Below, piece by piece: positions 1,754 through 50,554 of a stretch of 64,000 bases of DNA. The stretch is from Catenaria anguillulae PL171 (taxonomy: Eukaryota; Blastocladiomycota; Blastocladiomycetes; Blastocladiales; Catenariaceae). Position 1 is the stretch's first letter; each line of letters begins with the position of its first letter. The translations under genes and the position numbers were made by a program. Location of the stretch: NCBI GenBank assembly GCA_002102555.1, contig MCFL01000015.1, forward strand, positions 310,001 through 374,000, given 5' to 3'. A model generated the notes under the pieces. That model was given only the letters and a program-made list of their open reading frames with translations, was not told where the DNA came from and made no database searches.

Positions 1754-3069
1754 GGTGACGAACTGGCGGGTGTGGCGCAGAGGCAGAGGGTATCAGTTGA
1801 GGTTGAGAGGTGCGGCCGTCTCGGATCGAAGCGGAGAGGACGAGTCGTCGGTCAAGGCGCAAGCGAGCGAATATGTAGGTAGTACTGCCGGAGGTCGGCG
1901 GTGTATTGCGTTGCCTTTTGTGTGGATATCAAGGGTGTCTGTCAAACCTTCTTGGCACTCGTCCATAGCAATACAGCACTTGCGGGAGATCTGTCAAGAA
2001 CAGTCGAGAAACGGCGTTGCACGGGGGCAAAAGAACATATTTAGCAGGGCCGCTACCTCGGCAATACAGTACAGTGGCCATGCCACAGGGAATGAAAAAG
2101 AAGGCCTTGTTAACATTGCATTCAGTCCGTCGCAATTCAACTCCCCATCCGACCCTCAATCGTCTCGTCTGTTCGCAAGCATTGGTCGGAGAAGCGGATC
2201 GCGGTGAGTGAGAGTGATCACGATGAGACATGGACAGGCTTGCGATCACAAAACCTTTCTCGAAGCAACCAACAGCAGTTGAGGGCAATAAATATGCACA
2301 TGTATTTTCACCCCCAGTCGCACTCTGGCCAAACACTTCTTGCTGTTTTCACTCAGGCACGAGATAGACCCCTCATTCGGCATTGATTCAGTTTGGACTG
2401 CTTGTCGACTCGGCATGCCAAGGACTTGGCCGTTTGGTTTATCGTTCACCAGAGAACCGGACACTTGGCTGCCCTAGTCGCTGATTCACTTGTGCAGCGG
2501 CACAACGGTGAGTCTGCCTCTTCTTCAATCAAACGGTGTTCCTCGGTCCCATAGTCATCGCCTGTATGTATGGCGGTGAGGACGGTTAGGTTGCACGGAA
2601 AGCAAGTGCGAGACATGTGAGTCGGAAAACGCAGAAAACGCGCAGACCAGTCTCTCCCTTCCCATTGATCGGGCGCTCACCGCATTAATTCGAGACTCTG
2701 CCACATCCCAGCCAGCAAGAGAAAGAAATGGAGGAATTCCAAGAGAGTACCATTCTTTGCGGCCGAGCAAAAGCAATGGAGTGCGGTTCTCACACTACTC
2801 TAGAATTTGGAGCAGCCGGTATCGCCGCGCATGTCTGCTCTCCGGTGCAAGTTTGTAATGGATCATGTCTCGCCTCAATCCAGCTCCAAGGAGCTCGATA
2901 ATGGTGAGCAGCGGGGCTGCTCAAAAGGCACTGCCATCCCCGACCCGCCCTCCTTCCCTTCATTCCGTGGCCTATCACCAAACAAAGGCAGTCCAAACCA
3001 GCCAAAGAGCTCTAATCCACACACTCTGATCCACTCGTTCCCACACGCCAACGCAAACGCCCCACCACC
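1754..3069. other. intergenic, shared upstream region of two divergent genes
   Basis: Lies between the starts of the HSPA12-like gene (-) and the repeat-protein gene (+). I see no convincing coding region; the last 80 bases before 3070 are C-rich, as is common for a 5' leader in this window. Confidence 0.6.
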
Positions 3070-4311
3070 ATGTCCGCTGCCGCTGCCTACTACCCGCTCC
3101 CCTGCCACTCGACCGACATCACGGCGCAAACTCAAGCCATTGACCAGTCGCAAGTCGCCAACGCTGGCGATAACTCGGTCATCATCCAAATCCAGCAAGC
3201 CGTGCAAGCCCAAAAGGCCGACGTCGCATCGACCGCCGCCGCGGGCGGCCGCCACATGTCCGATACCTACGACCAGCAAGACAGCGTGGCCCAATCACAA
3301 GATCTCAACCAGGTTCAGTTTGCCAACTCGGGCGACAACTCGGTCGTGATCCAAAACCAAAACGCAGTGCAAAGCCAGTTTGGTAATCTTGACAGTAGTG
3401 ACGGGCACGGGTGGGCGACGGGCAACAGCATTGACCAGGCGCAGGACCTCAACCAATTCCAGTTTGCAAACGCCAGCGACAACTCGATCGTGATCCAGAA
3501 CCAGAATGCCTTCCAGGACCAATTCGCCAACCTCCACGGCGGCCACGGGTCGGGCAATAACATTGACCAAGCCCAGTCGCTCAACCAGTCGCAGTTTGCC
3601 AATGCCGGTGACCATTCGGTCGTGATCCAGAACCAGAACGCCGTCCAGAACCAGCAAGCCAACGTTGGCGGTGGCCGCCACATGCACGATGCGAATACGG
3701 TTGCTCAAGCGCAGGACCTCAACCAGCTCCAGTTTGCGGATGCGGGAGATAACTCGGCCATCATCCAAAACCAAGACGCGCCCCAGAGCCAATTCGCCAA
3801 CATTCACGACTTTGGTGGGCACGGCTACGGCCATACCGGGTATCCCGACTCGATGATCACGCAAGCTCAAGACCTCACCCAACTCCAGTTTGCCAACGCG
3901 GGCGACAACGCGATCATTGTGCAAAACCAAGACGCCTTCCAATCGCAATTCGCCAACCTTTTCGGCGGCCGTCACACGTCGGACGCCGACGTTATCGCCC
4001 AAGCGCAAAACCTCGACCAGTTCCAATTCGCCAACGCGGGCGACCACTCTGCCGTGCTTCAAAACCAAGACGCGTTGCAGTCGCAGTTTGCGCTGACCAA
4101 TGTGGACCCGCACGGGTACGCTGCTAGTGGTGGCGCGGGGCACGCAGGTGGGAGCGATTGGTTGGCCACGTTTGACTTTACGCACCAGGTCCAGGATTTG
4201 AATCAGGTCCAGTTTGCGAGTGCTGCGGGCGGCGATGGTGGGGCATCCGCAATGCATGCGTCGGTTATGCCAGATGTCACCGAGCCGTTGGTGACCATGT
4301 CGTTGTTCTAA
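3070..4311 (+). CDS. Q/N-rich tandem-repeat protein, curlin-like (possible amyloid or beta-solenoid)
   Basis: Single uninterrupted frame of 413 residues starting at an ATG in good context (CCACCATGT). From residue 16 it consists of seven full repeats and one degenerate copy of about 45 residues. The core reads roughly QAQDLNQxQFANAGDNS followed by VVIQNQNAxQSQFAN. Linkers are His/Gly-rich and of two kinds: GGRHM-like after repeats 1, 4 and 6, and GHG-like after 2, 3, 5 and 7. The core resembles the bacterial curlin repeat (Gln, then Gly/Asn, then an alternating aliphatic strand ending in Gln), which forms amyloid beta-solenoids. Repeat copies differ at many synonymous positions, so the protein sequence seems selected rather than recently duplicated. 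There is no obvious signal peptide or membrane segment. I do not recognise a named fungal family; function is unknown, with structural or surface fibre only a guess. Confidence 0.75.
   Translation: MSAAAAYYPLPCHSTDITAQTQAIDQSQVANAGDNSVIIQIQQAVQAQKADVASTAAAGGRHMSDTYDQQDSVAQSQDLNQVQFANSGDNSVVIQNQNAVQSQFGNLDSSDGHGWATGNSIDQAQDLNQFQFANASDNSIVIQNQNAFQDQFANLHGGHGSGNNIDQAQSLNQSQFANAGDHSVVIQNQNAVQNQQANVGGGRHMHDANTVAQAQDLNQLQFADAGDNSAIIQNQDAPQSQFANIHDFGGHGYGHTGYPDSMITQAQDLTQLQFANAGDNAIIVQNQDAFQSQFANLFGGRHTSDADVIAQAQNLDQFQFANAGDHSAVLQNQDALQSQFALTNVDPHGYAASGGAGHAGGSDWLATFDFTHQVQDLNQVQFASAAGGDGGASAMHASVMPDVTEPLVTMSLF
3115..4240 (+). repeat. seven-plus-one coding tandem repeats, about 45 codons per unit
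   Basis: Protein-level repeats inside the 3070-4311 gene. Units begin near bases 3115, 3286, 3427, 3556, 3700, 3853, 3988 and 4171. At DNA level they are diverged, with third positions varying freely. Confidence 0.8.
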
Positions 4312-39788: not shown

Positions 39789-41491
39789 ATGACAGCCATG
39801 CTTGCCACCGCCATTCCTCGCGCTCCCGCTACCGCCGCCAACGGCGCCTCCAACGGCGCCGGATCGCACTACCCGCAGAACGTGGGCATTCTCGCCATGG
39901 AAATCTACTTTCCGCGTCGTGTACGTGGTGGATTCCCCGCCATGTCCTGCGTGACTGATCGTACTCGGAGCTGACCCCGTATTGTGTTTGTATGTTGAAC
40001 CCTGCTGGCGCTACAGTGCATTGATCAACAAGACTTGGGTACGTCGTTGCTGTTGCTGGTGTCTCGTGCGGTCGCTGTTCGTTTGCCTTACTTGCTGACA
40101 TTGAGCTTCGTATCCTTGTGTACACAAAAACAGAAAAGCACGATGGCGTGTCGGCTGGCAAGTACACGATTGGTTTGGGCCAAACCCAAATGGCGTTTGT
40201 TGACGACCGTGAGGATATCAACTCCATTTCCCTGACCGGTTCGTCCCTTGCGCACTGTCCGCTCACCTTGTGACTGGATGCACGTGCTGATCCGTCGTAT
40301 TCCTTAACAGTCGTCCGCAACCTCATGGACAAGTACAACATCTCGTACACGGACATTGGCCGCCTCGAAGTCGGCACCGAAACCATCATTGACAAGTCAA
40401 AGTCGGTCAAGACGCACTTGATGGACCTGTTTGCCGCACACGGCAACACGTCCATCGAAGGCATTGCCACGACCAACGCCTGCTACGGCGGCACGTCTGC
40501 CCTGTTTAATGCGGTCCAATGGATGGAATCGTCGTACTGGGACGGCCGGTACGCCATTGTTGTGGCAGGCGACATTGCCATTTACGCCTCTGGGTCGGCA
40601 CGCCCAACGTCCGGCGTGGGCACTACGGCCATGTTGATTGGTCCGAATGCGCCGCTCGTCATGGAACGTGGGCTCCGTGGCACGCACATGGAAAACGTGT
40701 ACGATTTCTACAAGCCCAACCTGTCGTCCGAGTTCCCCGAGGTCGATGGCCCGCAGTCGGTTGTGTGCTACATGCGCGCCGTCGACAAGTGCTATGAGTA
40801 CTACCAGGGCAAGCTGGCACAGCACAATGCCAACCACGTCCACCAGCCGCTCATGGACGTTGCCGATTTCGCCGTGTTCCACTCGCCTTATGCCAAGATT
40901 GTGCAAAAGGCCGCCGGCCGCCTCTTCCTCAACGACTACTTGCGGTTCCCGGACTCGCCTCGGTTCGCCAACGTCCCCGAACAACTCAAGTCGACCAAGC
41001 TCGAGGATTCCTACTTTGACAAGGACGTGGAGAAGGCGTTTGTTGCCGTTTCCAAGCAATTCTTTGCCGAGCGCACCGAGCCGTCGCTCTTGACGTGCAA
41101 GATGATTGGCAACATGTACTGCGGCTCCCTGTACGGGTCGCTCTTGTCGCTGCTGTCGGTGACGCCCGAGCAAGACTTGCTGGGCAAGCGCATTCTCATG
41201 TTTTCGTATGGCTCGGGCCTCGCCTCGTCCATGTTTTCGCTGCGTGTTGCCGCCCCCGTGGGCCACATTGTCAAGACGACCGATGTGGTCAACCGGCTCA
41301 AGGCGCGCACCGTGCTGTCGCCCAAGGTGTTTGAGGAGGTGATGGAGTTGCGCGAGCGCGAGCACAATGCCAAGGAGTATGTGCCCACGGGCGACCTGGT
41401 CAATGGCTTGTTTGACGGCACCTATTACTTGACGGGCATTGACGCAAAGTTCCGCCGCACATATGCACGCAAGGAGCCCGCGTCGGCGTGA
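39789..41491 (+). CDS. ERG13: hydroxymethylglutaryl-CoA synthase
   Basis: Model: join(39789..39920, 40017..40038, 40134..40238, 40311..41491), 479 residues; exon 2 is only 22 nt. It condenses acetyl-CoA with acetoacetyl-CoA to HMG-CoA, the committed entry to the mevalonate pathway. Catalytic residues are present: Glu110 (RLEVGTE), nucleophile Cys144 (TTNACYGGT) and His in FHSPYAK; the Glu-Cys spacing of 34 equals that of the animal enzyme. Further family blocks: [32 protein letters not shown] and [17 protein letters not shown]. No targeting peptide of mitochondrial type is evident, fitting the cytosolic sterol-pathway enzyme. All splice junctions are canonical GT-AG. Confidence 0.96.
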
Positions 41492-42328: not shown

Positions 42329-45300
42329 CTACTCCACAACCGCGGTACCAGAGGCGGGCGGCCGAGCGCTCATGCGTTGGCACATGGCGCTTTGCAGGGT
42401 GCGGATCACGGTATCCTTCTTGATGGGCTTTGAAATGAAATCGTTCATTCTGTTTGGGGGAGGAGGGAATGTCACTGGCAATTGGTTGGGAGCGGAACAA
42501 TGCAAGGTGACGAGAGCGATACGTACCCTGCCTTCAAGCACGCGCTTCTTTCCTCTGGCAACGCCGACGCCGTCATGGCGCAAACCCAATGCACGGCCGC
42601 CGCCGAACCTGTGGCTGTACGCTCCCGTTCGCGAAGTAGCCGGGTTGCTTCAAGGCCGTCCTGTGCACGTCCAAACGTCAGTGTCACTCCGACATATCAG
42701 GTGCATGAACTACAACAATATAAGTGGGTGTACCATCGTGGGCATGGATACATCCATAAACACCACGTCATATTGCTTGCTCGCCAACAACTCCAACGCC
42801 TCGCGCCCATTTGTCGCCGTCGAAATGTGTCCCCGGTGGCCTGCAGACGAAATCACTTTGACGGCCACCTTGAGATTGATTGGGTTGTCGTCCACAACCA
42901 GCACGGATTGCACCTGCCAGTCCAGGGCTGGATCGTCCATAGCCAGCACCGCAGCGGGTGTAATGGGTCCCAATCCAGGCGACGGGTGCGCTTGCAAATG
43001 CCCGCCCTCGGGTGTCGACATGCGTCCAATTGTCTGTGCGCTGGCAATTGCGTGTGCATTCACCGACCCGACAAGCGGCGGCGAGTCAAACGACTTTTCA
43101 TTTGTCAAGCGCTTGTTTTGGACTTGGTTGTTGGTGCCGGAACCGGCGCCGCCGCTCATGGACGAGAACGGGTTGGGTTCCCCCGATCCGGTAGCCTGTG
43201 GCCAGCCGCTGGCGCTCGCAGTGACAGCACGAACCAGCGCGCGGTACAGGGCGGCAAATTTGACGGGCTTGCGCACAATCACATTGGCCATGGGCACCTG
43301 CTCGGGATCTTGCTCGGGCTCGCAACATCCGACGGGCACGACGGGCGAGCGCACCGAAGAAATGGAGAGTACCGGTGCCACTTCGCGGAGCGCGGCAAGT
43401 TCGCGGGCAAAGGCGACGGCTTGCGGCGTCGATTCGCGCATTTCAGGACTGGTCAGGGATCCACGACGAGCAAGCGAGTGACCGTTGGGAGCTGCGCTCG
43501 AGAATGGGTCCACCACGAGGAAAACCATGCGCAGCGGGGCGTTGCTACCTGCCAGTGTCCGTAAACGTTGAGCAGAGTGAAGCGCGTCAATGACGGTCGT
43601 GTGTGGCCAGCAGCTTCCTCCCATGGCATTCACCATGCTCGCAAGTGCGTGACGCGTGGCAGATGCGGACGGAGCGACCATGAGGACAGCAAGCGGATTG
43701 AGCGAAATGGGCGCCAACGGGCCCGAATTGTTGCTGTGCGTGGTGAGTGGGCTAATCATGGTCCCATCGCTGCTGAGCGTCGATGCGGGCGAAAGCGGAA
43801 CGAGGTCGTTATTGGCCGCTGGAGGCATTAGCAGCGAGCGGGGGGACGGTGTGAAAAGGCCAGAGACTTCATCGAGAACTGCGGGCGGGGCATCGACGTT
43901 GGCGATGGGCATGGCAGGCGCCTGCGGACCAGGCGCGCCGACCAGTGTGTCATTGGATAGTCCACCACGGAGTGATGGGGTCTTGTTGGTGAAGAGCCCA
44001 GGTCCATTGTCGTACGGGACTCGAACTGGCAATGCAAAACCAAACACGGATCCAACGCCTGGGGCCGATTGGACCCAAATCTTGCCTGCGTGTAGCTCGA
44101 CGAGCTTTGCGGAAATGGCGAGACCGAGGCCAGTGCCATGGGTGCTTGATGGCGGCGCGGATGCAAGATCGGATCCTTGGATAAATCGCTCAAACAATCG
44201 TTGAAGACCTGCATGACTGATGCCTTGACCAGAATCCACAACGTAAAAGTATAGGAACGGTGGCATGGGCTTGCGACCAGCCGATGCGGACGCTTGTGGT
44301 ACCGGTGACGGCGCGGCCGTTGAGGTTGATGGAGGCGGTGGCGGTGGAGGTGGGCCAGGTTTGTTGCCGAGCAAGGGTGAAGTGACACTGGTACCCGTCT
44401 TGAATGAGGTAACAGCAATGACTCGCTTGGTTCCGCGTGGCGGCTTGGCGGATGACGAGCTGTTGAGCGCATTGGCACTGTTGCTGCCTGTCAAGGGTCG
44501 CGTCATGCGAATGTCATCATCCACATCATCGTCGTTGTCGTCATCCATTGAAGAACTGGAAAGAAGACCCGACGACGAAGCGGACGAACCGTATTTGTTG
44601 GTCAAGTTGGAATGCATGGCAGCTGACGAGTAGGACGAGCTGGCCGGTTGGGGAGTCTTAAAGTCGGTCGGGAGCATCTCAATCACTACGGACGACCCAA
44701 AAGAAGAAAAAAAGTGTCAGGAGTATGCCCGTGTAGATGGCTCTTGGGAAACAAACGTACCCTCCGGCTCAATCTCATCAATCATGGTCGCCGGATCTTC
44801 AAAAGAAACGGCCGGCCGTGCCGCGCCCGTCACCAACGGCCCCGTAAAGTCCAAACACCGGCGATTAACCAGCTTGGTATCGTTGGCAAAGACAACGGGC
44901 TCCCTCGCAACCACCACAAAGATCTCGCCTTGCTCGGTAAACTTGGCGGCATTTGACACCAAGTTGGCCAAAATTTGTGTAATCCGCGTGCGATCACCAA
45001 ACAACTTATCGGGAATGAGTGGGTCGATAATGTAGTTGAGGGGCAAGTCGAAATGCTCGACTCTCTTTGCGATCAAATCCACACACGTCTCGACGCACGT
45101 GCGCAGCGAGAATGGAGCCGAAGACAGCGTCAGCGACCCCTGGTGCTCCAACTTTGCCAAATCCAAGATGGTATTGACCAAGTTGAGCAAGATCTGCGAC
45201 GACATCATGACGGTATCCAAGGTATCGCGAACGTCTGCCGTCAACGACGGGTCCTCGAGCAACACATCAACAAACCCAATGATGGCATTCATGGGTGTGC

Positions 45301-46894
45301 GCAGCTCGTGCGACGTGGTGGCCACAAACTGTGATACCTCCTTGACGTGCGCCTCGGCGGCAGCCAGCCGCTTTTCCATTCCGTCGCGGTCCTGCACGGC
45401 AAGGGCCAGCTGCGTTTCCGCTGACTGACGCGTCACGTACTGGTGCGCATGGTCGAGCGACACTTGCAGCTGGGTCAGGAGATCCGTGTACCTGAGTGTT
45501 TCGGCCAAGCTGAGGTGCAAGGCGGTTTCGTCCGACGCGCCAAGGACAATGAAGCCGGTGCGTGTGCCAAAGCGGAGGCGGAACGCGAGTCCCGACGAGT
45601 AGCGTGCGCAGCCAAGGAGATAGGCGACATCGACGGTCGACAATTTGACGATTTGTGACTGGGTCAGGATGGAGCTATTCCAATCATACCCACACAATCA
45701 CAATCCGAGTCAGTCAAGTGCGAAACAGAGGGAAGAGAATGCAATATGATCGCCGCACTTTGCAACCCGCTGGCTCGTCTCTAAAGTGTAATCTGTAAAG
45801 AATGGACCCGCGACCGAACGACCAGATGCAGAAACGTGATGCTCGGCAAAGCATCTCAACACACGGCACGCGCGGTTGCTTGATGCATTGGCCGGCGACG
45901 AATCCAGCGGATGCCTACGCCTGCTGCTTGCTGGCGCAGCCATACCCGTGTCGATTGGGAGAAAGACCGTGACGGATGGGAACTTTGGGTACGAGCGAGC
46001 AAGCTCGCCAACAGCAGCATCGATGGTCGACTGAAGAGACGTGCGACCGTGAATGAAGGTGACGAAATGACGGAACTAGATGAAAAAACGACGGTAAAGT
46101 CGAGTCAGGTTGCAAATATCGAGTTTTGAGGGCGTTGGGATTTCGGGGGGCGCACATTTTCGGCCCACTTGTCCGTGGACTGGGTGATTGCATCGCGTCG
46201 AATCAAAAGTCCGAGCTCCTCTTCGAGACGGCTCATGCGCATTGGGTATGTGAGCAGGTCGGGCATGAGCCGCAAAAGCACGGCGGCGGTGGCGGACGAT
46301 ACGAGTGCACTAGAATGAGGCGCAGCCGGGTCAATCATTCCGAGCAACATCTGTACCACTCAAGGTGAACAGCACACGTACGTCACAACTTTGATACTGG
46401 TCAATACCCAGAACGGGGCCATGAGAATGCGGACCAGATGCGTCAATCCGCTGAAAAACACAACACGATGCAATGCTCGGTGAGTGCCGAAAACGCACCA
46501 CGGCCCAAGGAGATCGTATACGAGATAAGAAAGCATAAAGGAGGTCGCACCAGCACATGATGAAGGCCGTAAACAACCACAAGACCCATGTCAGCGGGAA
46601 CCTCGACGACAACTGACGCTGGAAGTACCAGATCATGAGCGGAATGGCGAAATAAGCGCCTGCGGTTATCCCATCAGCAGCATTTTCAACAGACATTTCC
46701 AGCGGCGTTGACGAAAAGGGCGATGCATTCGCTTGCACAGCATCCCCTGGTTGCTGTAACTGCTTTGCCAGATGGACCTCTATCGCTGCGGGCGGGTGAG
46801 CATACGGTCTGGGTGCTGGCGTTGCAGAAGCAACTTGTGCGCTGCATGCAACGGCGGCAATGAGGACGCATGCGAGGGCTAGGGCGGGCTGCAT
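42329..46894 (-). CDS. ethylene-receptor-like hybrid histidine kinase
   Basis: Model: complement(join(42329..42449, 42527..42660, 42734..44685, 44761..45674, 45759..46075, 46156..46309, 46382..46450, 46551..46894)), 1334 residues; every phase closes. Order: signal-peptide-like start (1-25); three membrane segments (about 74-165) matching plant ETR1, with Asp74 and Tyr81 (ADGITAGAYFAIP), then Cys115 and His119 (CCGLTH), equivalent to ETR1 Asp25, Tyr32, Cys65 and His69 that bind Cu(I)/ethylene; KVVTALVSSATA and LMPDLL as in ETR1; GAF-like region (about 205-360); HisKA with His417 (SHELRTPMNA); N-box Asn536; a 200-residue low-complexity insert; G1 DSGQGI (750) and G2 HGTGLGLA; a degenerate receiver; and a C-terminal receiver (LVVDDNP, phospho-acceptor Asp1244 in FMDVSMP, Lys in ISKPI). 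Likely an endomembrane sensor feeding a phosphorelay. Such receptors have been reported in early-diverging fungi; ligand binding here is inference. Confidence 0.9.
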
Positions 46895-49006
46895 GATACG
46901 AATGCTCTGGGTTTGGTGGCGAGAGTCATGGCGGGTTGAGCGGGTGGGCAGAGGGATGTATGCTCAATAAATGCATGTGGATCTTTTGAGCCTGGGTGAT
47001 TCCTGTTGGCCGATTGTGGAAGGATGGGGTCGAGGGAGTTTCGTTGACGGGACTGTTGGACAACAGGATCGGGGCTCGCTGACGCGAGCTCTTGTACGAC
47101 AGTCATAATGGCTAATGGAGGGATTGGTTGGTCTGTCGAATGTGGAATTCTTGTCGCCAAATGGCAGGGGGTATGTAGTATGACAGGCGGCTATTGGTGT
47201 TTGGTATCCGGCAAGCAAGCGGGAATCTGTCTCTTGGTCTTGAGAGCACTTGAACCAATCAGCGAGCGAGGTCAGAGTTATGCTGATGGGCAGGAGCAAT
47301 TACCCACGATCGAAGCGCACGTACAAAGTCCCGATTCCGCCCTTGTAGAGACAGGCAGTGAACCGTCAATGATCGAGGCACGAGTTTAGGACACGTGCAC
47401 GTGTGATTCCAGGTCGTGGTACTGTGGGAATAGGCCAACAGCGCCGCTTAGTTTAGAGCTGAGCTGAACAGGCGTGAACGAACGACGATCGGAAGGGGGG
47501 CGGCCCGGAAAATCACTTGGCGCCAAGGGATTGATTAGACTGGAGGGCAGCGCAGGCAGAGCTGGATGCATGTATTGAAGCCAAATCCCTCGAGAGAAAG
47601 AAAGATTGACTCGACCGAGTATCACAGCGTATCAGACACGCGGATTGGAGTCTGTCTGCTGCTTGATTGGGTATGCTGTGCAACAGCAATGTGCGAAAAG
47701 CTGGAGGGAAATGTTGGGGTGGGGAATATTTGCTGGGGATCAGATCGATGGTACGGCGGTGTTGGAACTGTTGTGGGACTGAAGGAAATTCGCTGTGAAT
47801 ATGGGGGTCAGCAAAGCTTGAAGACGCTTCCTACATAAGTTGACACGACCAAACACCGTGCCAAGGCCATCACACTTAGGGAGCCAATTGGGCGAGATAC
47901 TCAAGAGGGTAGTTTTGAAGATGTCGATCGGGCAAGCGTCAAGTATGAAGATGACGATGAGGTTCGGCCAAAACGAATGTGGTTGCCAGAAAAAGATGGC
48001 AGGGATGGGTTCGTGGCGGACTGTGCGACTGTCGCAGGCTCAAAGAGGTGATGACAGCCGGCTGCCTTTACTTGGTTGGACCTCAAGTACAACCAGGCAA
48101 TGGTAGAAGGGAATGCTTAGGCTGAAATGGCGTACATGCATCTATTGGGAGATTGTCTTCGGCGAATGCTCGGGTGATGTGAAAATGACGACTCGAGCAA
48201 CTAAAGCTGATCGACAGGTAGAGAGGGGACTAGAACGAGCCAAGGGAGGGGGAGGCAGAGGGAGCGGTAGGTGTAACGAGAGAGCCGGTGGAGATGGGCA
48301 ATGTAAGTAGGACTCTTGATTGTACATGTGGGCACTACGTAAGAGGGCAGCCTGGGGCGGAAAGATCTCAAGGGTAGGATCTGTGGTAAGAAGCTGAGGT
48401 TGAAGCAAAGACAAAATTGGCAGACAGGAGCCTTTTCTCCACGCTCGAGATCGATGGACCGGAGAGCCACCGCCGGCCAAGGAAGCTGATGACGGGGCAC
48501 CACGGTCCTTCAAAGCAACCCGCAGATGGATTTACTGCACATGTACCAAGGCAGGGTCAATAGATGAGCAAAGAGGAGCCCAAGCATCCATTCATACTTA
48601 CCTCTGTACAAATACAAAGGAGTTCACCGGATCCAAGAAAGCGCCACACAGGTTGGCGGAGGACTTGTGGAGACTCACACCATTTTGTGTGTAGCTTAAA
48701 CATGGTAACTTGTCTGTGAGGACATCAACGGATAAATCGCGATCATCCGACGACCAGGATTTCTATGGGTATGGACTACGATGAGTCGGATTGAGCCTGG
48801 CCGATTTGCCCACATATTCCTCAATAACAGTGTGTTACATAGTTTCAGCATTTAACCTGTTACCGCATTCTGACTCTGAGCATTTGCTGGGGTGCGTTGT
48901 TGTCAGATCTGCGGGCGTTCAGCTTCTGAATTGCGTGAGTGAATAGCATATGTACATTTCGTACGTCGACCGTTCCCTGCCCAGAATATGGTAAGTGAAA
49001 CGAGCC
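46895..49006. other. 2.1-kb divergent intergenic region
   Basis: Upstream of both the ethylene-receptor-like kinase (-) and the topoisomerase-like gene (+). Only short frames without protein-like content; a GTAAGT donor-like site at 48991 could belong to a 5' UTR intron of the topoisomerase-like gene. Confidence 0.45.
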
Positions 49007-50554
49007 ATGCGATCCCGACCGTCCGCAATGTCGTCCCGCCACCATGTAGTTCATAAAAACCCACTTTCCGCGGCAGACCCGGATCCCCTACCCGATGTCG
49101 TTGCCTCTTGGCCCAAATGGTGGCTCCTTCCTGATCCTCTCTCCACGAAATGGCTCTCCCTTCAGCACGCTGGCCCGTGCTTTCCGCCTGACTACACACC
49201 TCACGGCGTGCCAATCCTCTATGGCGGCCAACCAGTTTCCCTTGGCCCTGCAGCAGAAGAGGCTGCCACGCTCTACGCAGCCACCATTGGCGTCGCACCA
49301 AGCAGCAACGTGTTTGACGCCAACTTCTTCTCCGACTTTCTCACCATAATTCGTGCTTCCGAGCCCACAACGTGCCCCATCACCGAGTTTGACAAGTGCG
49401 ACTTTTCGCCTCTTATCAACTACTTGTCCGCAGAACGCGCGCGGCGCCAGGCCATGTCTGCCGACGAAAAAGCCGCTGCCAAAGCCGCAAAGGCTGCACT
49501 TGAGGAGCCACATGCGCACGCCTACGTTGATGGGCAGCCCGTCAAACTCGGTGCATTTCATGTTGATCCACCATGTATCTTTCGCGGTCGCGGGCAGCAC
49601 CCGCTTGCAGGCAAGATCCGCGCGCGCGTCCGTCCGGAAGATGTGATTATCAACGTGGGCGAGTCAGATCCGGTGCCTTTGCCGCCTTCTGCGCACAAGT
49701 GGAAGCAGGTGGTGCATGATCATTCGGCCTTGTGGGTGGCAAAGTGGACCGATTCCATCGAGGGAGGGGACAGGTATGTGCATATGCCGCTGGTGAGCGC
49801 GTGGAAGGGCTTGGCGGATTTCAAAAAGTTTGAGGCGGCCAGGAGGCTCAAGGGTGGGATTGAGCGGGTGCGAAGGGAGTATATGCGGTCGATTCGGGAC
49901 GAGGCAAGCGAGCAGAGAGAGCGCCAGCTTGCGACGGCCGTATACTTGATAGACTGGATTGGGTTGCGTGTAGGCGGCAGTCCGAGCCAAGATGCAGATG
50001 ACGGCACCGTGGGCATTCTCGGCTGTTGCTCGTTGCAGTGCAAGGATATCGCGGTCACAAGTGAGGACACGGTTTCGATTGCTGGCGCTCGTGAGCTTGC
50101 CCTTGATCCGCTCGTGTGCACCATCTTGCGGTCGCTGAAGCAGGAAAAGCAGGACGCGGAACCTCTGTTCCATTTGATCGATTTCACTTTGCTGTCCAGG
50201 TACCTGACGTCGCTCATGGACGGCTTGACAGCGACCGTGTTTCGCGCGTTTAATGCGTCGTTCTCGACGCAGCAAGAGCTCGCCCGTTCGCCCGCCAATG
50301 CGGCAAGCATCGATGATTTGGTTTCGTTTCACGGTCGTGCGCTTGAGGCAGCGGCCGCAAGGTGTCATTTTGCGCTGGATGCACTGTCGACTGAGGTGAC
50401 GGGAGTGTGCACGGCCCAGGTGAATTATGTGGACCCAAGGATCAGCGTGTCGTGGTGTAAACGTCATCATGTGCCCATTGAGCGAGTTTTCATGCTGTCA
50501 TTGACAGAAAAGTATGTTTGGGCCTTGGACGTGGATCCGGATTGGCATTGGTAA
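49007..50554 (+). CDS. shortened DNA topoisomerase IB-like protein
   Basis: Intronless, 515 residues from the ATG at 49007. It aligns with eukaryotic Top1 core: KWWLLPDPLSTKW, HAGPCFPPDY, KCDFSPLINY, PPCIFRGRGQHPLAGKI, PEDVIINVGES, KWKQVVHDH, GCCSL, LMDGLTATVFRAFNAS, VNYVDPRISVSWCKR. The catalytic Tyr (474, VNYVDPRI) and both arginines (LRVGG; VFRAFNAS) are retained. The segment holding the catalytic lysine (GKDSIRY in human) reads AGARELA, and the NHQRxPPK block with the catalytic His is not recognisable, though a lone RCH lies nearby. The charged N-terminal domain and coiled-coil linker are missing; the family norm is about 750 residues. Lack of introns and of catalytic residues suggests a diverged paralogue or retrocopy; activity is doubtful. 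Alignment is from memory. Confidence 0.8.
   Translation: MRSRPSAMSSRHHVVHKNPLSAADPDPLPDVVASWPKWWLLPDPLSTKWLSLQHAGPCFPPDYTPHGVPILYGGQPVSLGPAAEEAATLYAATIGVAPSSNVFDANFFSDFLTIIRASEPTTCPITEFDKCDFSPLINYLSAERARRQAMSADEKAAAKAAKAALEEPHAHAYVDGQPVKLGAFHVDPPCIFRGRGQHPLAGKIRARVRPEDVIINVGESDPVPLPPSAHKWKQVVHDHSALWVAKWTDSIEGGDRYVHMPLVSAWKGLADFKKFEAARRLKGGIERVRREYMRSIRDEASEQRERQLATAVYLIDWIGLRVGGSPSQDADDGTVGILGCCSLQCKDIAVTSEDTVSIAGARELALDPLVCTILRSLKQEKQDAEPLFHLIDFTLLSRYLTSLMDGLTATVFRAFNASFSTQQELARSPANAASIDDLVSFHGRALEAAAARCHFALDALSTEVTGVCTAQVNYVDPRISVSWCKRHHVPIERVFMLSLTEKYVWALDVDPDWHW

Follow-up and report, generated by a model that had tools for sequence, protein, structure and literature searches.

The question raised by this locus is whether a fungal hybrid histidine kinase holds the complete copper/ethylene site of the plant receptors and, if so, whether the protein had been described before. 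In the window (the whole stretch of 64,000 nucleotides of Catenaria anguillulae PL171 that we analyzed), the data indicate that the ethylene-receptor-like kinase gene is real and that it codes for a complete copy of the plant-type site. The protein is already known and adds little alone; what gives it meaning is that zoosporic early-branching fungi keep full ethylene-receptor sites in Catenaria, Blastocladiella, Allomyces, and Sorochytrium. As the sites are full in several genera, these proteins are fair candidates for a binding test.

Gene structure and previous records

A three-frame reading of the reverse complement gives a hybrid histidine kinase of 1,334 residues on the minus strand (46894-42329), with eight exons (Table 1) and seven GT-AG introns that measure, from 5' to 3', 100, 72, 80, 84, 75, 73, and 77 nt. 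The preliminary description had assigned the ethylene-binding region to 46105..46894, a span that takes in exons 1 to 3 correctly and in which positions 46105-46155 belong to intron 3, with the gene extending to 42329. Its numbering of Asp74, Tyr81, Cys115, and His119, like the three helices read from exons 1 to 3, agrees exactly with our spliced model, and intron 1 does divide the codon of Cys115, the second Cys of a CC pair, with TG before the intron and C after it.

Table 1. Features of the kinase gene (window positions)
Feature	Position	Strand	Content
Exon 1	46551..46894	-	Helix 1 (Asp74, Tyr81, Ile84, Pro85), most of helix 2, up to TG of the Cys115 codon
Exon 1, N-terminal part			Signal-like hydrophobic stretch (about residues 1-28), then ectodomain of about 40 residues
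Intron 1	46451..46550	-	100 nt, GT-AG, phase 2, GTGCG...TTTTTCAG; interrupts the codon of Cys115 (presumed copper ligand)
Exon 2	46382..46450	-	Last part of helix 2 including CGLTH (with the third base of the Cys115 codon and His119), first part of helix 3
Intron 2	46310..46381	-	72 nt, GT-AG, phase 2; position and phase common to the paralogue
Exon 3	46156..46309	-	Remaining helix 3 and cytoplasmic helix
Exon 4	45759..46075	-	Linker, region where plants have the GAF domain
Exon 5	44761..45674	-	HisKA with SHELRTP, N box of the ATPase domain
Exon 6	42734..44685	-	Long low-complexity insert that interrupts the ATPase domain; G1/F/G2 boxes, linker, first part of the receiver
Exon 7	42527..42660	-	Receiver, middle part
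Exon 8	42329..42449	-	End of the receiver and stop codon

In a protein search, the spliced model proved to be BCR44DRAFT_49608 (GenBank, hypothetical protein, Catenaria anguillulae PL171), letter for letter over all its residues. PL171 is among the genomes of Herivaux et al. 2017 (PMC5285503), whose passages on this family identify two ethylene receptor homologues, CaHHK1 and CaHHK2, and describe the homologues as having three helices and all crucial residues, with both plant subfamily layouts occurring. Since a profile search gives at least two ETR1_N hits in the Catenaria genome, i.e., at least one further such gene, and since two proteins are named in that report, BCR44DRAFT_49608 most likely corresponds to CaHHK1 or CaHHK2; the strain, the three helices, and the crucial residues are the same, and we found no difference in those passages. 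With the protein deposited and CaHHK1/CaHHK2 already reported for the strain, the claim of a new instance was wrong. The observation itself is confirmed, and the class, a known one, was rightly named: by Pfam matches, site residues, and tree, this is a hybrid histidine kinase from a fungus, its ETR1-type domain has a complete site, and we infer copper and ethylene binding.

For a relative there is transcript evidence, as a Blastocladiella emersonii sequence in a 2006 EST survey matches the ethylene receptor CS-ETR2 (passage in PMC1550239), and passages in two reviews state that early fungi have ethylene receptor homologues (PMC7700396 and PMC6944256). No functional study of BCR44DRAFT_49608 was found among the searched passages of the literature on C. 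anguillulae histidine kinases or on blastoclad and zoosporic ethylene receptors.

The ethylene-binding domain and its relatives

The Pfam ETR1_N profile matches residues 69-158 at 87 bits against a cut-off of 27 (E = 1e-24), which is not a chance match. An AlphaFold model of residues 61-196, made with 27 rows (mean pLDDT, 93.3; pTM, 0.70), shows three long helices together with a cytoplasmic one, so the three-helix domain is also seen in the structure prediction. Among solved structures, no match to the domain was found by sequence, and a fold search gave 37 PDB matches at E <= 10 and none at E <= 0.001. As a separate observation, the model resembles an unnamed viral protein, A0A8E4UZR7, the best viral model in Foldseek (TM, 0.68; probability, 1.00; E = 0.011), which is possibly a virus-borne ethylene-binding domain.

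The ethylene-binding residues of ETR1 are reportedly Asp25, Tyr32, Ile35, Pro36, Ile62, Cys65, and His69, a list said to go back to Wang et al. in 2006, and these are the seven positions scored here. All seven are kept in the window protein when it is aligned to an ETR1-type receptor (Passiflora ETR1 numbering), in agreement with the complete site that had been claimed, and they are found together in 27 of the 34 aligned rows, the incomplete ones being six bacterial-looking rows (P0004, P0005, P0008, P0010, P0015, and P0028) and P0023. Conservation is full in the six plant rows, which were taken from the best 120 of 904 matches, and in 11 of the 12 blastoclad rows, with P0023, whose model seemingly retains intron 1, as the twelfth. 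Passages in the literature speak of "seven conserved amino acids" (PMC6944256) and name C65 and H69 (PMC9603746). One row also gives an example of a degraded site: P0028 (source jgi) has the ETR1_N domain with the ligand Cys changed to Gly, and it keeps four of the seven residues.

To place the domain, we built a tree of 42 domains over 117 columns. From the 34 rows, we left out P0023 because of its retained intron, P0028 because its site is lost, and P0014, which nearly duplicates P0013. The cyanobacterial-like row from P0027, used as query, gave 13 loci, by record title 12 cyanobacterial and one planctomycete, of which we omitted two that are further Rhizonema loci, L010 and L011. The 11 blastoclad domains form one clade (99/97) within a family that also includes plant, cyanobacterial, and other domains, so the phylogeny does not put the window domain outside the ethylene receptors, the outcome that the preliminary description had named as fatal to its reading. 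Within the clade, the window protein groups with the Blastocladiella proteins P0002 and P0003 (100/98 for the three rows).

The blastoclads join the plants at 99/96, with a program warning of long branches meeting there, and if either plants or blastoclads are omitted, the other group gets no well-supported place in the tree. Family membership is therefore supported, and the route of origin is not. AU tests gave p values near the 0.05 line both for plants with cyanobacteria (0.0445) and for blastoclads with cyanobacteria (0.0344), and the present set, which has no receptors of algae, amoebae, Capsaspora, or other fungi, does not decide whether the domain came by transfer from plants or cyanobacteria. 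A direct query for bacterial and archaeal relatives of the window domain returned 76 pattern matches, none of them confirmed.

Kinase architecture and putative sensing

Downstream of the sensor, the Pfam cut-offs are exceeded by HisKA (409-472), by HATPase_c, which is matched in two pieces, and by Response_reg (1194-1312), and the H, N, G1, F, and G2 motifs are present together with the receiver Asp and Lys. HisKA, HATPase, and receiver are shared with the plant ETR1-type receptors, as is the membrane domain (42% identical to that of Passiflora ETR1, P0126, in 112 columns, with seven of seven site residues). Unlike plant ETR1, the window protein has a signal-like extra hydrophobic N terminus and no recognized GAF domain, is about 600 residues longer, and places 207 residues between the N box and the G1 box. 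This long stretch is shared with B. emersonii P0002 (201 residues) and B. britannica P0003 (206 residues), both of which differ from the window protein in sequence only, whereas the Catenaria paralogue P0016 has 68 residues there; the spacing is known for these four proteins, the motif search having failed in four other relatives. No GAF domain was matched by Pfam in the window protein or in the five blastoclad relatives scanned, and a profile comparison of the region at the GAF place with the plant region gave a probability of 10% in local and 59% in global mode.

The extra hydrophobic segment at residues 1-28 (hydropathy up to 2.29) is a trait of plant subfamily II and could represent a signal peptide that is cleaved off. 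A diverged histidine kinase domain is also described for this subfamily (passage in PMC9603746). In the window protein, the H, N, G1, F, and G2 motifs are all in place, and for this reason we do not file it under subfamily II.

The best explanation as a whole, and one that we hold to be highly probable, is that the locus codes for a kinase of the described CaHHK1/CaHHK2 type in which Cu(I)-dependent sensing of ethylene, or of something similar, would feed a His-Asp phosphorelay. In a dimer, the three N-terminal helices would hold Cu(I) through Cys115 and His119, helped by Asp74 and Tyr81, and ethylene or a comparable small olefin would be the ligand of this site. Ligand binding would alter the activity of the attached kinase, the direction of the response being likewise a matter of prediction, and phosphate would pass from the kinase His (SHELRTP) to the receiver Asp (VVFMDVSMP) and on, via an HPt protein, to a response regulator. 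Profile searches of the genome gave, besides the ETR1_N hits, at least 10 HisKA hits, including two pairs with equal scores, and at least two HPt hits, of which one has a stop within its matched region; by this count, the genome has enough parts for a phosphorelay. The preliminary description had further suggested that the organism can sense ethylene or a similar molecule, possibly from plants or algae, which is likewise a prediction.

A fungal precedent comes from Agaricus bisporus, where the membrane domains of two kinases, AbETR1 and AbETR2, bound ethylene in yeast with two of the three essential residues (passages in PMC9603746). They share with the window protein the fungal hybrid kinase layout, the membrane domain, and a Cys. 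They differ in the five predicted helices of AbETR1 and in having two of three essential residues, compared with seven of seven in the window protein.

The site could also belong to a membrane sensor that binds copper and naturally responds to another small molecule, or to the copper or redox state, instead of ethylene, a reading that we consider unlikely. It agrees with the way of life tabulated for the fungus, a saprotroph on decaying plant material and facultative nematode parasite (table in PMC5285503), for which living plants are not a necessary source of the signal. Next to the ligand Cys115 stands another Cys, Cys114, which is also present in B. britannica P0003, so a redox role is possible. 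Against this reading, the residues kept in the blastoclad and plant rows are the seven reportedly linked to ethylene binding, including the Ile and Pro positions.

A role of the domain as membrane anchor or dimerization unit only, with the site as a relic, is very unlikely. The intact kinase motifs would not need the site, but the domains of P0002, P0003, and the paralogue, at 61%, 57%, and 43% identity to that of the window protein, still keep all seven residues, and a decayed site looks different, as the Cys-to-Gly change in P0028 illustrates.

The intron at the Cys codon and the surroundings of the gene

As had been claimed, the His is lost without splicing of intron 1: the unspliced frame reads FIMCWCDLLY and ends after 187 residues without the His of CGLTH, so retention of this intron in Catenaria truncates the protein. 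The deposited model of the Allomyces arbusculus protein P0023 reads FILAWC...GISGTTH, with 28 extra residues, in frame, before GTTH. It seems to retain intron 1 at the same Cys codon that is split in the window gene, and P0023 thereby seems to be without the Cys-x3-His spacing. In A. javanicus, P0022 is spliced at the Cys codon and carries 24 residues where intron 2 would be; the Allomyces intron positions are inferred from protein models, not from DNA. The Catenaria paralogue shares intron 2, has an intron in helix 1, and has none at the Cys codon. This paralogue (L003; G000:C68:282500-291500), deposited as BCR44DRAFT_1525761, has a complete site of its own.

The phase 2 intron in the Cys codon might then be old in blastoclads and sometimes retained, which would yield a receptor without the copper site, and splicing could therefore set ethylene sensitivity. 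We regard this as highly improbable; the extra residues of P0023 may be mere misannotation. It is likewise highly improbable that an arbitrary splice choice in the gene model, or the assembly, produced the Cys/His pair. The model is predicted from DNA, and 14 GT-AG introns of 40-219 nt with a donor in the interval 46603 to 46451 preserve the frame as far as helix 3, but just one of the 14, that of 100 nt, yields FIMCCGLTH and restores the family alignment. The deposited model is identical, though it possibly rests on a similar prediction, and the A. arbusculus model suggests an intron in that very codon. Protein-level surveys can wrongly score the site as absent when the Cys-codon intron is misannotated.

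No mention of an intron within the Cys codon was found among the searched passages of the literature on Catenaria histidine kinases and on blastoclad and Allomyces ethylene receptors. That it is apparently common to A. arbusculus is likewise a detail absent from the passages of the papers cited here.

Eight of the 10 open frames of the window that were scanned have a Pfam match. The neighbors of the kinase gene are an HMG-CoA synthase gene at 40274-41491 and, at 48995-50554, a topoisomerase I paralogue, and among the annotated genes, which are part of those in the window, we saw no pointer to an ethylene gene cluster. RTE1 is a plant accessory protein; a search for it gave no match, and since the control was likewise without a match, nothing follows from this.

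The topoisomerase IB paralogue is compact, lies on the plus strand, and matches PDB topoisomerase I 1a31, which we take to be the human enzyme, at 298 bits. The stretch around what is presumably the catalytic Lys is gapped out in the alignment and about 80 linker residues are missing, so this may possibly be a diverged, inactive copy; contigs C156 and C135 carry further topoisomerase I hits. Finally, at 3016-4311 on the plus strand, an open frame of 431 residues without a Pfam match is made of Gln/Asn-rich repeat units (QFANAGDNSVVIQNQ-like), partly as a 132-nt tandem, and its predicted product looks like a repeat-built surface protein, perhaps amyloid-like.
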